IMG/VR virus record: IMGVR_UViG_3300040770_000255
Location: 1 to 35,336 of that record
Source of the DNA: a virus
Length of the DNA stretch: 35,336 nt
Direction: 5' to 3' (one strand)
Below, piece by piece: positions 29,694-34,319 of this stretch (the first letter of the stretch is position 1; every line of letters starts with the position of its first letter). The translations under genes and the position numbers were made by a program. The notes beneath the pieces are model-generated. The model saw only the letters and a list, made by a program, of their open reading frames with translations. It ran no database searches and was not told the DNA's origin.

Positions 29694-30869
29694 ATGAATG
29701 ATGTTATTTTTAACCGTGGCGAAGGCGGTCTTGGACGCGCTTTGGCTGGTGAAGATCATATTTCGGGCCTTTTGGCTTTTTTATTAGCGGCGGACTTGCC
29801 AGCGGCTTTTTCCACTAATAAAATACAAGTTATTTATTCTATCGAAGAAGCTGAAGCGCTTGGAATCACAAAATTAGCGGCTTCACCTGAAGCTGTAAAA
29901 AAACTTCATTATCAAATAAATTCGATATTTGAAGTGAATAAAAAGGCGGTTATTTATTTGGGAATTTATACGCGCGTAGCTTTAACGGCGCCGGATTACG
30001 CGAAAGTGCTAGATATTCAGCGTTTCGCCGAAGGTAAAGTTCGACAAATCGGAGTTTTAAACGAAGAAATTGCTTTCGCCGGTTCTGTCGTTACTGCTTT
30101 GCAAGCGCAAGCCGACATACTAGAAGCGGAGCATAAACCATTAAGTATTGTTTACGCTGGGAATATGTCAACTTTTGCCGTTCTTGCTACTTTGCCGGAT
30201 TTACGCGTTTTAGACGCAAAAAACGTTTCTGTTGTTGTTGGTCGAGACGGCGCCGGACTTGGTTCGTCTATAAATACTTCAATTTTAGGTTTAACAATTG
30301 GAGCGCTTTCGCTCGCAAAAGTTAACGAAAACATAGCTTGGGTTTCTCGTTTCAATATAGCCAAAAACGCGACAAACGAATTCGACGTTCCGGCCCTTAC
30401 GACAGACGGAACACTTTTAAAAATGTTAAGCGCTGGCGCGGTCCAATCATTAACCGATAAAGGTTATATTTTCTTAAAAAAACACGTTGGAGCCGCCGGA
30501 ACTTATTTTGACGATACACCAACAGCGACAGCCGTAACGTCCGACTATGCTTTTATAGAAAATAACCGAACAATCGATAAAGCCGTTAGAATTTGTCGGA
30601 ATTTTCTTTTGCCTTCGTTAAACGCGCCGCTTTACGTTTTTGATAACGGACTGCTAGCCGAAGACACTATTGCAAGCTTTAGAAACGACGCGCGCCGCGG
30701 TCTTGAAGGAATGCAAAAAGACGGCGAAATTTCGACGTTTGAAGTAATAATAGACCCGTCTCAAAACGTTTTAAGTTCTTCAAAAATCGTTTTGACTTTA
30801 AAAATTGTTCCTGTTGGAGTTGCGCGAAAAATAGAAGTAAACATTGGCTTTGCCGTTAAAATATCTTAA
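29694..30869 (+). CDS. Tail sheath protein (DUF2586-like)
   Basis: 391 residues. It starts MNDVIFNRGEGGLGRALAGE and continues with the sheath pattern LPAAFSTNKIQVIYSIEEAE, a central domain, then YAFIENNRTIDKAVRICRNF and a strand-rich end. The pattern fits DUF2586-type sheaths of Bacteroidetes contractile phages. Followed two bases later by the tube gene, the standard sheath-tube order. The gene shows the virus is a myovirus-type particle. Confidence 0.85.
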   Translation: MNDVIFNRGEGGLGRALAGEDHISGLLAFLLAADLPAAFSTNKIQVIYSIEEAEALGITKLAASPEAVKKLHYQINSIFEVNKKAVIYLGIYTRVALTAPDYAKVLDIQRFAEGKVRQIGVLNEEIAFAGSVVTALQAQADILEAEHKPLSIVYAGNMSTFAVLATLPDLRVLDAKNVSVVVGRDGAGLGSSINTSILGLTIGALSLAKVNENIAWVSRFNIAKNATNEFDVPALTTDGTLLKMLSAGAVQSLTDKGYIFLKKHVGAAGTYFDDTPTATAVTSDYAFIENNRTIDKAVRICRNFLLPSLNAPLYVFDNGLLAEDTIASFRNDARRGLEGMQKDGEISTFEVIIDPSQNVLSSSKIVLTLKIVPVGVARKIEVNIGFAVKIS

Positions 30870-30871
30870 AA

Positions 30872-31291
30872 ATGGAAAACATACCTTTAATTAACGGGCG
30901 CGCGTATTCTTACGTCGACGTTATTGTAAAAATTGCCGGAGTTCCGGCGCCTTCTTGTATGAAAATTAATTATACCGAAGAACAGGAAAAAACGAACAAT
31001 TATGGAACCGGTTCGCGTCCGACATCGAGGGGCGCCGGAAAAATTGAAGCAAAGGCTTCTATTGAGCTTTCAATGAACGACGTCGAAGCAATTCGAGACG
31101 TCGCGCCTTTGGGTTCGTTGCTAGCTTTGCCAGCCTTCGACATTGAAGTTCATTTTTTAAACCTTCAAAAAGTCGTTACGCACGTAATAAAAAATTGTGA
31201 GTTCACAAGTGACGGAAACGAAGCCGGAGTTGGTGACACGGATATAAAATTTAGTTTTGATTTAATTCCGTCGCATATTCTTTACAGATAA
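30872..31291 (+). CDS. Tail tube protein
   Basis: 139 residues, almost all beta (RAYSYVDVIVKIAGVPAPSC, then KIEAKASIELSMNDVEAIRD, FDIEVHFLNLQKVVTHVIKN), fitting the tube/Hcp-like fold. Placed between sheath and tail chaperone, with a leader of 2 bases from the sheath. It forms the inner channel through which DNA passes. Family recognised from size, strand pattern and position. Confidence 0.8.
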   Translation: MENIPLINGRAYSYVDVIVKIAGVPAPSCMKINYTEEQEKTNNYGTGSRPTSRGAGKIEAKASIELSMNDVEAIRDVAPLGSLLALPAFDIEVHFLNLQKVVTHVIKNCEFTSDGNEAGVGDTDIKFSFDLIPSHILYR

Positions 31292-31330: not shown

Positions 31331-31882
31331 ATGAGCGCTAAAAATTCACAAATTGAAAAAAAAATTCGTTACGAAATAGAAGTTGAAGGCGCGGTTGGAA
31401 AACTCGCGCCTTTGTCGTTTCATGTAGCCGAAGCCTGTCTTGGCTTTACTTTTACGCAATTTCCAAAAATGATACAAGCCGGCGAAATACTTTTAAATTC
31501 GCTTTTCGTTTCCGGTGACAAAAAATACACAACAGAAAAAAACAGCGCCTTTTTTACGCGCGCATGTCTCGAAGCTTATAAAATAATTGAATTACTTTCT
31601 TACGAAGTTGACGGCGACAAAATAACCGTCGAAACTGAAGGGAAAAAATATAGTTGTACGCTTAAAAAAGACATCGACAGGGGCGTTTTAGAAAACGCGC
31701 TTGGTTTAATACGTCCAAACTTCGGCGCGCCGTTTCCGTTAACGGCCGGAAAAATGATTTTAGAAAATTGTTGGCTTGAAGGCGACGAAGAAATAAAAAC
31801 GAACCATGAACTTTTAGTTCCGGCCTGTCTTGCGGCTTATTATAGAATCGAAGCAAAAGAAACAAGCTTAAAAAAGCTATAA
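31331..31882 (+). CDS. Tail assembly chaperone, short (G-type) form with internal duplication
   Basis: 183 residues. Two similar halves are seen: residues 31-90 (FPKMIQAGEILLNSLFVSGD, then ACLEAYKIIE) and 119-178 (FPLTAGKMILENCWLEGDEE, then ACLAAYYRIE), spaced by about 88 residues. Ahead of a tape-measure gene this is the position of lambda gpG/gpGT. A canonical slippery heptamer near the end gives a longer product. The stop is shortly followed by an open -1 frame. It prevents premature tube assembly around the tape measure. Confidence 0.8.
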   Translation: MSAKNSQIEKKIRYEIEVEGAVGKLAPLSFHVAEACLGFTFTQFPKMIQAGEILLNSLFVSGDKKYTTEKNSAFFTRACLEAYKIIELLSYEVDGDKITVETEGKKYSCTLKKDIDRGVLENALGLIRPNFGAPFPLTAGKMILENCWLEGDEEIKTNHELLVPACLAAYYRIEAKETSLKKL

Positions 31883-31908
31883 GTCAGCACGCAATAATTG
31901 ACCCTGAC
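31870..31908 (+). promoter_or_regulatory. Programmed -1 ribosomal frameshift site
   Basis: The heptamer A AAA AAG (31870-31876) is in the exact frame for -1 slippage from the chaperone gene (codons TTA AAA AAG). After a 6-base spacer comes GTCAG (31883-31887), which pairs with CTGAC (31904-31908), a likely stimulatory hairpin or part of a pseudoknot. The same heptamer is used in E. coli dnaX. Confidence 0.85.
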
Positions 31909-32064
31909 AACGACGAAGTTTTTGAAGTTAGGAAAATGAGCGCTTTAATTCGGTTCTACTTTAAAGAAGACCCGAACGCGTTGACTGACTTGGAATTTGC
32001 AAAGCGCTGGAACGACTTAAAATTTGCGTTGCATTTTGAAAGTAAACGAAAATCAATTTTTTAA
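31876..32064 (+). CDS. Frameshift extension of the tail assembly chaperone (T-type)
   Basis: In the -1 frame the sequence is open for 62 codons (AISQHAIIDPDNDEVFEVRK, then MSALIRFYFKEDPNALTDLE, ending FALHFESKRKSIF) and stops four bases before the tape-measure ATG. Joined to 182 residues of the short form it makes a 244-residue GT-like protein. The codon usage matches real genes here. There is no good independent start at its head, though one internal ATG exists; frameshifting is the better explanation. Confidence 0.82.
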   Translation, partial: AISQHAIIDPDNDEVFEVRKMSALIRFYFKEDPNALTDLEFAKRWNDLKFALHFESKRKSIF

Positions 32065-32067
32065 ATT

Positions 32068-33684
32068 ATGAGTAACAATACCGAAGTTTACACAATACGA
32101 CTAAACGACGTCAATTTTTTGGCTGGAATGAGACGCGCACAAGACGAAGCCGAAAACACTTCGCGACGCGTCGGCGGAATTGGTTCGGCTATGAAGTTAG
32201 TCGGCGGAATTATGGCCGGCGTTTCTGTCGGGGCGTTGGGCGTTTCTGTTGTTGAGACCTTGGCAAAATTCGAAAAATTTGAAGCCGTTTTAACGAATAC
32301 TTTTGGCGACAGTTCGACAGCAAAAAAAGCGCTGTCGGATATAACCAAATTTGCAAAGGAAACGCCTTTTGAGGTCGACGAATTAACGGGCGCTTATGTT
32401 AAACTAGCGAACCGCGGCGTCGCGCCAACCATGGAACAAATGGCTAAAATGGGCGACGTAGCAAGTTCAACAGGAAAAGGCTTCGACCAATTAGCTGAAG
32501 CGGTTCTAGACGCTTCGACCGGCGAATTTGAACGTTTGAAGGAATTCGGTATTACAGCCAAAAAACACGGCGATCAAGTTCGTTTTTCCTTTAAAGGAAT
32601 TTCAACCGAAGTTGGTTTTTCAGATAAAGCGATTACGGAATACATTCAAGGCCTTGGCGACATGAACGGCGTTCTTGGTGCGTCCGACGCTATAATGAAA
32701 ACGACAGGCGGCGGAATTTCAAACATGAAAGACACTATTACGGCTTTATACTTGAATATTGGCGAAAATTTAAAGCCAGCGATTACAGCCGTAATTTCAG
32801 GACTAACTTCAGCTATTACGGCTATTAGTTCTTTTGTTTCTTTTCTTGGTTCCGGTTCAACGGGCGCGAAGGCTTTCGGCGTTGTTATGGGCGTTATCGG
32901 CGGCGCTTTGCTAACTTACGGAATTATTACGACAGGATTAGCAATAAAAACGGGCGTTTTAACCGTCGCGCAATTGCTTTTAAATACTGCTATGACTGCG
33001 AACCCTATTGGAATAGTAATTGTCGCTGTCGGGGCGTTAATAGGGGCGCTTGTCATGGCTTATAATACTTTTGACACGTTTCGCGCTGTCGTTAACGGTG
33101 CGTGGTCCGTATTAAAAACAATAGGTTCAAATATCGCTTCAACTTTTACCAATATACCTGATTTAATAATTAAGGCTTTTATGCAAGTTCCGGCGGCGAT
33201 TATGTCGGCCTTTTCAGGCGTTGGAAAATTATTTTCAGCGATTTTTTCCGGTGATTTTAAGGCGGTTCCGGCTATTATGGCCAATCTTGGAAAAGACATT
33301 TTAAAGACGAACCCGCTGACCGGCTTCGGCGTGAATGTAGCTGAAAGTTTAACCAAGGGCGCCGGCGAAGCTTATGGTAAAGCTTACGACGAAACGATGG
33401 CGAAAGCGGAAAAAGACAAAGCAAGTTTAAAGACAGGCAAAAGCAAGGCCGCCGGCGCGAAATTAAACGTTCCTGTTGTCGGTAAAGCTGGAAAAGGCTT
33501 GGACGCTGGGATTTCAGAAGTTCGTTCTTCAGCGCCGAAAAATTTTTATATTTCTATTGGAAATTTAGTAAAAGACTTAAATATTAATACTACAAATTTA
33601 ACTGAAGGTTCGGCGAAACTAAAAGAGGAAATTACAAAGCTTTTATTAACAGCTGTAAACGACATGCAGATAATTTCAGGATAA
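32068..33684 (+). CDS. Tape-measure protein
   Basis: 538 residues. The N-terminal domain is typical of tape measures: VYTIRLNDVNFLAGMRRAQD, then TFGDSSTAKKALSDITKFAK, ETPFEVDELTGAYVKLANRG and AVLDASTGEFERLKEFGIT. The middle holds hydrophobic helices (about 225-345), and a shorter tail follows. At about 1.5 angstrom per residue, the common rule, this predicts a tail near 80 nm. It overlaps no gene and follows the frameshift product by three bases. Confidence 0.88.
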   Translation: MSNNTEVYTIRLNDVNFLAGMRRAQDEAENTSRRVGGIGSAMKLVGGIMAGVSVGALGVSVVETLAKFEKFEAVLTNTFGDSSTAKKALSDITKFAKETPFEVDELTGAYVKLANRGVAPTMEQMAKMGDVASSTGKGFDQLAEAVLDASTGEFERLKEFGITAKKHGDQVRFSFKGISTEVGFSDKAITEYIQGLGDMNGVLGASDAIMKTTGGGISNMKDTITALYLNIGENLKPAITAVISGLTSAITAISSFVSFLGSGSTGAKAFGVVMGVIGGALLTYGIITTGLAIKTGVLTVAQLLLNTAMTANPIGIVIVAVGALIGALVMAYNTFDTFRAVVNGAWSVLKTIGSNIASTFTNIPDLIIKAFMQVPAAIMSAFSGVGKLFSAIFSGDFKAVPAIMANLGKDILKTNPLTGFGVNVAESLTKGAGEAYGKAYDETMAKAEKDKASLKTGKSKAAGAKLNVPVVGKAGKGLDAGISEVRSSAPKNFYISIGNLVKDLNINTTNLTEGSAKLKEEITKLLLTAVNDMQIISG

Positions 33685-33686
33685 AA

Positions 33687-34319
33687 ATGAAAACGAATAT
33701 AATAAGAATTGATAACCCTATTAAATATTTTTCATTTAATAGTCTTATAATTGGCGCTAAAGGTCGCGCGTCTTCAGAATTGAAGTCATCCGTTTATCGC
33801 GAAAATTTAATTTCCGAAGAAGAAGACTTTGACAAGCGTTCGTTATTCGGTACGCCTGTTTATTCAAATTTAGAAATTCCGGCCGGCCAATATACGGACC
33901 TTAACGGAAATGTTATAAATTACGAAGGCGTCCGAATTGACACAATACTTTTCGACATATCACAGGAACGCAATATTATAAGAACCGCCGTGGCTGGAAA
34001 AAATGGAACTATTAAGCAATTTATTGCGGACGGCGACTATATTATAAATTGTTCGGGAATTATTACAGGCGAAAGCTTTGAAACGAATTCGGGTTTTGGA
34101 GTTGAGTCGGTAGTTGGAGTTCCTGAAGCTGAACTTCGAAAACTAAAAGCTATTTGTTCAGTTCCTAAAGAAATTGAAGTTATTTCTGAATTTTTGGACT
34201 TTTTCGACATTACGACCGTCGTTATTACGTCGCCAACTTTTTCGGAAAAAGAAGGTTCTAGGAATGAAATATTTTTTGCATGTTCCATGATTTCAGACGA
34301 ACCTATTGAACTAAAATAA
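33687..34319 (+). CDS. Tail protein, DUF6046-like
   Basis: 210 residues. Features include KSSVYRENLISEEEDFDKRS, LFGTPVYSNLEIPAGQYTDL, YEGVRIDTILFDISQERNII and a later strand-rich segment, matching tail proteins described as DUF6046 in Bacteroidetes phages. It lies between tape measure and gpD-like hub, where a hub or distal tail protein is expected. The family name is given from memory and should be treated as likely, not proven. Confidence 0.65.
   Translation: MKTNIIRIDNPIKYFSFNSLIIGAKGRASSELKSSVYRENLISEEEDFDKRSLFGTPVYSNLEIPAGQYTDLNGNVINYEGVRIDTILFDISQERNIIRTAVAGKNGTIKQFIADGDYIINCSGIITGESFETNSGFGVESVVGVPEAELRKLKAICSVPKEIEVISEFLDFFDITTVVITSPTFSEKEGSRNEIFFACSMISDEPIELK

Follow-up and report, generated by a model that had tools for sequence, protein, structure and literature searches.

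A probable lambda-type G/GT tail-chaperone gene in a contractile-tailed phage, from a family whose frameshift site appears to drift and to change direction

Results

The locus

The window analysed here is a virus record of 35,336 bases, taken as a whole. At 31331 to 32064 it carries an open reading frame (ORF), G, overlapped at its end by a second open frame, T, in the -1 phase. The two very probably make up a single tail-assembly chaperone gene with two products, produced by a -1 frameshift of the lambda G/GT kind. The original prediction, made from the letters alone, had proposed such a gene; the site, frame, gene order and coding signal of T support it strongly, and the predicted fold of G moderately. 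The features of the locus are as follows.

31331..31882, + strand: G, putative tail-assembly chaperone, zero-frame product of 183 amino acids (ATG ORF; phrog_19076, E 9.5e-9; AlphaFold2 model; best solved structure 3fgx)
31361..31600, + strand: G domain copy 1, residues 11-90 (single-domain hidden Markov model, 33.1 bits)
31622..31879, + strand: G domain copy 2, residues 98-183 (same model, 57.3 bits)
31870..31876, + strand: slippery heptamer A_AAA_AAG, one codon ahead of the G stop (sequence; clade conservation)
31877..31882, + strand: CTATAA, last G codon and stop
31876..32064, + strand: T, -1 frame region of 62 amino acids, reached via the shift (translation; codon-position differences from the relative L001)
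31331..32064, + strand: putative GT fusion, 182 + 62 amino acids, via the -1 shift
31883..31908, + strand: GTCAG...CTGAC stem of the original prediction, judged not supported
31936..31938, + strand: T-frame ATG, which could be a start of its own for T; unconserved, with 6 of 12 distinct clade members having it

The slip site in the window and its clade

G ends in the codons TTA AAA AAG CTA TAA. These place A_AAA_AAG at 31870-31876, ten bases 5' of the G stop, and the heptamer is in frame as first described, in the phase that suits a -1 slip. Among the window's 10,099 codon positions there are five in-frame copies of A_AAA_AAG and 144 in-frame heptamers of the general form X_XXY_YYZ. In a first survey of 161 distinct G ORFs, 129 loci had a -1 match to T. 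X_XXY_YYZ lay exactly 10 nucleotides (nt) ahead of the G stop in 83 of the 129, against 78 of 7,740 positions (1.0%) in the preceding 60 codons, so the site is more than chance.

The window's own clade comprises 12 distinct double-domain loci (the window, L001, L002, L003, L006, L008, L018, L019 and L023-L026); L034, whose stretch stops short of the junction, was excluded. All 12 keep A_AAA_AAR at the same place (ten A_AAA_AAG, two A_AAA_AAA), the conservation in related genomes that the original prediction had proposed to look for.

The T frame

As predicted, the -1 frame is open for 62 codons up to the tape-measure start, with its stop at 32062-32064 and the tape-measure ATG at 32068. The window and L001 differ in T at 1, 2 and 13 places at codon positions 1, 2 and 3.

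Using viral contigs and further genomes, we extended the survey from the 161 G ORFs to 251 distinct G loci from Bacteroidota phages and prophages, the window included. Loci identical over 150 bases around the stop were counted once, and close relatives remain separate counts. The 251 leave out the large island and flank stretches (L110-L126, L241-L245, L247, L248, L250-L252), L005 as an additional locus of the window, two stretches of 10 bases each, and any G ORF whose stretch covered fewer than 120 of the 150 bases. The viral contig scan with all 17 single-domain relatives was too divergent and was replaced by two narrower alignments, the second of which kept 80 of 126 loci.

T was found in the -1 frame in 199 loci, in the +1 frame in 34 and fused in frame to G in six; in none of the 251 was it a separate ORF in the same frame. 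The 12 loci with no T found are six G-only partners of in-frame GT genes, L087, which is cut by a contig end, three that look degenerate, and L180 and L358. In the Bacteroides-family loci L163, L166 and L167 the T frame looks decayed by stop codons, and L119 has two T-like open frames (starts 2454 and 2929) after one G.

Between -1 loci, 26, 17 and 57% of the differences in T fell at codon positions 1, 2 and 3 (151 ungapped pairs, 70-97% identity). This pattern, with that between the window and L001, indicates that T is a coding frame under codon-level selection. The signal is less clear in the stretch ahead of the T-frame ATG alone, with 145, 107 and 158 pairwise differences by codon position among seven gap-free clade members.

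T could instead be a separate small gene translated from the internal ATG at 31936, as it is annotated for gp39 of the Flavobacterium phages lotta8-1 and pippi8-1. Six of the 12 clade members have that ATG, and in three that lack it a TTG lies no more than about 10 nt from its place. However, the six without it read ATA or ATT there, and in L002, L023 and L026 the T frame contains no ATG, GTG or TTG as far as 75 nt past the G stop, so a separate start cannot serve the whole clade. Start codons are scarce throughout the -1 loci: the T frame of 138 of the 199 is free of ATG, GTG and TTG through 40 nt past the G stop, and only two loci have one of these within 12 nt of it. The third-position excess between the window and L001 and the in-frame G-T fusions of six relatives also argue against a separate gene. 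We rejected the start at 31936, the outcome that the original prediction had set against itself, and consider a separate T gene very improbable.

RNA structure after the site

The original prediction completed its set of lambda-like gpG/gpGT elements with a GTCAG/CTGAC hairpin. The site, frame and gene order of that set stand; the hairpin does not, either in the window or in its clade. The bases of the stem are present, at the stated spacer of 6 nt from the heptamer. The 84 nt after the window's heptamer fold no better than shuffled sequence (z +0.54). Perfect 5-bp stems that begin 3-9 nt past the heptamer and enclose a loop of 3-20 arise in 195 of 2,000 shuffles and at 745 of 5,006 places in the window. 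Across the clade 64.6% of cells in the stem pair. Column shuffles reached its covariation score in 0 of 500 cases and its share of pairs in 6 of 500, but two of six slid controls exceeded that covariation score, and RNAalifold predicted no pairs for the clade. A conserved stem-loop 5-9 nt after the heptamer was thus not found in the window and its clade; it was found in two sister clades.

Over the family as a whole there is an excess of structure at this place. In the 129 loci of the first survey, the mean folding energy of 40-nt windows directly after the G stop, 6 nt after the heptamer, was 3.1 kcal/mol lower than that of shuffles; at offsets beyond the range -15 to +3 the mean difference stayed between 0.04 and -1.3. 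By a two-standard-deviation rule 54 of 129 loci were structured after the stop, against 4 to 19 of 128-129 outside those offsets. The corresponding counts in the larger set were 60 of 199 loci and 306 of 3,768 background windows.

The stem of the A_AAA_AAC sister clade had 98.8% of cells paired, and four of its seven pairs had changed on both sides, each in one row. That alignment held 14 of 20 loci in 12 distinct rows, omitting L161, L162 and L190 (without the stem), L181 and L188 (another stem) and L216 (a near-copy). In the other double-domain sister clade (nine of ten loci; L143, with a different stem, omitted) 88.9% of cells paired, and six of 12 pairs and 13 cells had changed on both sides. 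These covarying stems lie at the spacing of a stimulator and give independent sequence evidence that ribosomes slip in members of the family; that evidence does not extend to the window itself.

RNAalifold found no longer-range structure in the G_GAA_AAG/G_GTA_AAG/G_GTT_TTT class (51 sequences) or the single-domain A_AAA_AAG class (38 sequences). The G_GAA_AAR class showed a structure signal 27-39 nt past the stop (-1.8 to -2.9 kcal/mol). Right after the stop there was no excess in this class (4 of 36) or in loci with G_GGA_AAG 19 nt ahead of the stop (0 of 6). In L048 and L049 the usual place reads G_GAC_AGG, which fits no slippery rule known to us; T is nonetheless in the -1 frame, and a stem of 14 predicted pairs comes after the stop.

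Drift of the slip site

At position -10, 99 of the 199 -1 loci have X_XXY_YYZ: A_AAA_AAG in 58, A_AAA_AAC in 20, A_AAA_AAA in 17, A_AAA_AAT in two and G_GGA_AAG in two. In a further 20 the overlap contains such a heptamer at other positions only; in six of these it is G_GGA_AAG, 19 nt ahead of the stop. The other 80 read G_GAA_AAG (33), G_GTA_AAG (12), G_GTA_AAC (8), G_GGG_GAA (5), G_GGG_GAG (3) or rarer forms at -10. The four letters ahead of the last codon are A_AAN in 168 of the 199, so the A-site half of the heptamer appears to be kept and the P-site half to drift. On a tree of the G domain, A_AAA_AAN and the G-G class need nine changes. The tree, of 232 rows without the last five residues, is built on few columns and has long branches and many unresolved forks.

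On the sequences compared, these non-canonical sites are not accounted for by start codons: of the 36 G_GAA_AAR loci, 29 lack any ATG, GTG or TTG in the T frame as far as 40 nt past the stop, and no locus of the class has one within 12 nt of it.

Of 81 loci whose G has Lys-Glu at codons -8/-7, 27 write it AAG GAG, where codon use in the same genes would predict 10.6; for Lys-Glu pairs elsewhere the count is 20 of 202, with 20.8 expected. The over-used AAG GAG lies 8 nt ahead of the slip site. This hints at a possible Shine-Dalgarno-like stimulator as in dnaX, but is no proof of one. Bacteroidota ribosomes rarely use Shine-Dalgarno pairing.

The range of sites also bears on whether the fusion arises by transcriptional slippage on the A run and not on the ribosome. 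The window's site is a run of six A, and polymerase slippage on longer A runs is described in PMC3711429, which names more than seven A; six is short by that measure. Relatives have G_GAA_AAG, G_GTA_AAG or G_GGG_GAA at the same spot, and in two sister clades covarying RNA hairpins lie 6 nt downstream, as ribosomal slippage would use. We give transcriptional slippage the same slender chance as a separate T gene. The idea that T is a decayed remnant or a sequencing error, with G the sole product, is less likely still, as nothing in the window favours it (L163, L166 and L167 look degenerate), the frame and its coding are conserved over 199 distinct -1 loci, and the window and L001 differ by 1, 2 and 13 across the codon positions.

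A clade with T in the +1 frame

Among 26 loci first scored as lacking T, 14 proved to have it in the +1 frame. The junction of the 34 such loci, which include L150-L155, L197-L200, L203, L205, L206 and L208 together with viral contig loci, lies at the G stop. Each of the 34 has TTT_CGY_NNN_stop (31 CGC, 3 CGT), and in-frame TTT_CG is absent from the other 4,481 codons examined in G ORFs of this clade. CGC is the rarest arginine codon in three +1 neighbourhoods (1.7 per 1,000 of 9,636 codons). Differences in the clade's T fall 22, 14 and 64% by codon position (179 pairs). The +1 frame of 28 of the 34 lacks ATG, GTG and TTG as far as 40 nt past the stop; three loci have such a codon within 12 nt of it. 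A structure signal lies just upstream of the site (-3.1 at offset -21), with none downstream (2 of 34). We also considered a -2 shift, which is unlikely: in 9 of 34 TAC precedes TTT, and TAC_TTT_CGC lacks the T run needed for -2 re-pairing.

The +1 loci form a single branch (Shimodaira-Hasegawa-like approximate likelihood ratio 99). Their G is homologous to that of the rest (99.5%), and hhalign detected no homology between their T and the -1 T (probability 0.2%); the new direction of shift may thus have arrived together with a new T module. Relatives of the sheath, tube and hub genes occur in all six prophage neighbourhoods compared (L245, L248 and L252 with +1 loci; L247, L250 and L251 with others).

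Tail islands with separate G and GT genes

Six genomes (island loci L110-L114, L117 and L118; flanks L241-L244) encode GT in frame in one gene and G alone in another. In five the two genes share a contig, separated by about 8 to 16 kb; in the sixth they are on different contigs. Sheath (DUF2586) genes are present in all six islands, and tube, DUF6046 and hub genes in those of L110-L114. Queries for capsid, tape measure and protease (from the window and from the Winogradskyella phage Peternella_1) and for terminase and portal-like protein (from the window) found nothing in the islands or, for two islands (L110 with L243 and L244; L111 with L241 and L242), in the roughly 50 kb surrounding them. 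In the control prophage L251 capsid and portal-like matches were found, with no tape-measure or terminase match in its 18 kb, so the island search has little power for those two. The islands look like headless contractile-tail islands that would need both G and GT and encode them separately, which supports the view that both products matter.

The gene after G in L111 (12461-13345) and L113 (12760-13200, both on the island coding strand) shares an N-terminal NHNIEL.DTSASEMARFRQIML.IWRQQIEDD and has different C-terminal parts. A shared N-terminus with differing C-termini is frequent in polymorphic payload proteins.

The G protein

Profiles of the two halves of the window's G match each other at 96.1%, and its AlphaFold2 model (mean predicted local distance difference test score, pLDDT, 90.4) repeats a similar order of elements. 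G of the window's clade is, on this comparison, two tandem copies of one domain. Double-domain G also occurs in L061, L088, L142-L148 and L176, and single-copy G in other relatives such as Peternella_1 (111 amino acids).

We compared the model of a single-domain relative, L042 (pLDDT 92.6), with solved structures. The top matches were RBSTP2171 (3fgx; Z 8.3, 88 residues, root-mean-square deviation (rmsd) 4.2), YqbN (3klu; Z 5.6, 76 residues, rmsd 3.4) and, third, the HK97 chaperone (2ob9; Z 5.1, 73 residues, rmsd 3.0), at sequence identities of 7-18%; a Z below 8 can reflect merely a common arrangement. The list continues at Z 4.0 with 5ir0, which comes from a phage satellite and has no known function, followed at Z 2.5 by an unrelated enzyme. 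The entry for 2ob9 itself carries the chaperone name, and we take YqbN and RBSTP2171 to be chaperone relatives. The window's double-domain model matches 3fgx (Z 5.8) and 5ir0 (Z 2.7), with 2ob9 and 3klu not among its matches. Foldseek alone gave nothing at E 0.001 (best 3fgx, 0.0015), and by sequence the sole solved structure was again 3fgx (E 0.052). The models thus moderately support a lambda-type chaperone fold for G, with moderate Z values.

Other libraries added little. Among the best 50 of 453 matches in the viral structure library BFVD, three reached E 0.001 or better, none informatively named; named tail assembly chaperones appeared only from E 0.019, and none of these matches was used as evidence. 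Pfam gave no match for G or T up to E 1, and across 17 relatives one weak match to Phage_TAC_16 (E 0.15) amid other weak, chance-like matches; scanning the relatives against Pfam and NCBIfam did not yield a useful name. To the original suggestion that the chaperone may be unrelated in sequence to lambda's, these comparisons add that Pfam has no match for G, but that HK97 ranks third for the fold of L042. Every one of the 17 relatives tested matches phrog_19076, whose function is unknown. In Bacteroidota samples that overlap in a few genomes, the family was matched in 12 of 397, 13 of 395, 65 of 296, 13 of 301 and 7 of 201 genomes.

Gene order and nearest relatives

The neighbouring tail genes of the window are these.

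29694..30869, + strand: contractile tail sheath, DUF2586 (phrog and Pfam matches)
30872..31291, + strand: tail tube protein, directly upstream of G (phrog_4579 tail protein, E 1.3e-12)
32068..33684, + strand: tape measure protein, directly after the T stop (phrog tape-measure families, e.g. phrog_5062, E 4.3e-45)
33687-34319: DUF6046 protein, next after the tape measure

The sheath gene bears out the contractile tail that was originally proposed. The best phrog match of the tube gene (2.3e-14) carries the name major head protein; its position equals that of the lotta8-1 'tail protein'. The tape measure protein also scores slightly below the cut-off of Pfam TMP_3. The order sheath-tube-G-T-tape measure matches that of lotta8-1, pippi8-1 and FPSV-S1, and as in lambda-type loci two ORFs lie between the tail tube and tape measure genes.

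The nearest isolates are lotta8-1 and pippi8-1 (G 67% and sheath 61% identical, the latter over its full length in lotta8-1), followed by FPSV-S1. Their records place all three in Winoviridae; our own comparison with that family covered the sheath and G. Core genes listed for Winoviridae in PMC8776804 include Clp protease, neck, major capsid, sheath and protein D, among others. In the public annotation of lotta8-1 gp38/gp39, pippi8-1 gp38/gp39 and FPSV-S1 (L006, L007, L008), G is hypothetical and T is begun at an internal ATG or omitted.

Discussion

The window's phage probably makes two versions of its tail chaperone. Most ribosomes would translate G, of 183 amino acids and two tandem chaperone domains, and halt at 31880. 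A minority would slip back one base on A_AAA_AAG and read 62 further codons to give GT. Lambda, according to PMC5009743, uses the G part to bind the tape measure and the T part to bind the tube protein. By analogy, many copies of G and a few of GT may bind the tape measure, and the T part may bring in the tube protein, which would let the tail reach its correct length. The slippage, its rate and these roles are inferred. In favour of two products are the gene order, the fixed slip site, T in the -1 frame in 199 of 251 loci, codon-level selection on T and the scarcity of start codons, and also the family's excess of structure, the compensatory changes in sister clades, the chaperone-like predicted fold and the six relatives with GT in frame.

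Four findings weigh against this two-product interpretation. No X_XXY_YYZ occurs anywhere in the overlap of 80 of the 199 -1 loci, T lies in the +1 frame in 34 of the 251 distinct loci, 12 of the 251 have no detected T, and the window's own clade is without a supported 3' stimulator.

The lambda heptamer is G_GGA_AAG. The window's phage differs from lambda gpG/gpGT in this, having A_AAA_AAG, and also in its contractile tail, its duplicated G domain and the lack of a Pfam match for G. The HK97 (2ob9), YqbN (3klu) and RBSTP2171 (3fgx) proteins resemble the predicted fold of L042 at low sequence identity. Winoviridae members lotta8-1, pippi8-1 and FPSV-S1 and the Winogradskyella phage Peternella_1 share the window's gene order and its heptamer, 10 nt before the G stop, but G of Peternella_1 is single-domain, and the Winoviridae member fF4, unlike the window, has G_GGA_AAG 19 nt ahead of the stop.

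The window's heptamer is that of E. coli dnaX, according to PMC5009743 and PMC3711429. In these accounts dnaX has two stimulators, and some relatives of the window likewise over-use an upstream AAG GAG and have 3' hairpins. The gene is a different one, however, and the window's clade has no supported hairpin.

Tailed phages overall use -1, -2 or +1 shifts for this gene, as stated in PMC5009743. UUU_CGN is known as a +1 motif from influenza PA-X (PMC3498833) and plant amalgaviruses (PMC5052127). The +1 clade is like these in having UUU_CGC or UUU_CGU in all 34 loci; unlike them it consists of bacterial phages and prophages, and its site differs from the window's own. In the open-licence literature we found nothing on UUU_CGY shifting in phage, nor on a frameshift in this family. 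It seems likely that within one family the direction of the shift has flipped, with a clade of Chryseobacterium-family prophages and viral contigs using +1 at UUU_CGY and the rest -1 at drifting canonical or non-canonical heptamers, and that apparently headless islands encode G and GT as two genes. The lambda-type G/GT -1 frameshift is a known kind; what these searches add to it is the family itself, with its duplicated domain, a slip site that drifts, a clade that appears to shift +1, and the apparently headless islands with separate G and GT genes.

These results suggest a function for phrog_19076, a family of unknown function that is widespread in Bacteroidota, and would correct annotations that split or drop T. 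The family is also a naturally occurring series of slip sites, at a position that is almost constant: A_AAA_AAG, A_AAA_AAC with a hairpin, G_GAA_AAG, G_GTT_TTT, G_GGG_GAR, UUU_CGY with a +1 shift, and no shift at all. With such a series, what a slip site requires may be testable in this phylum.
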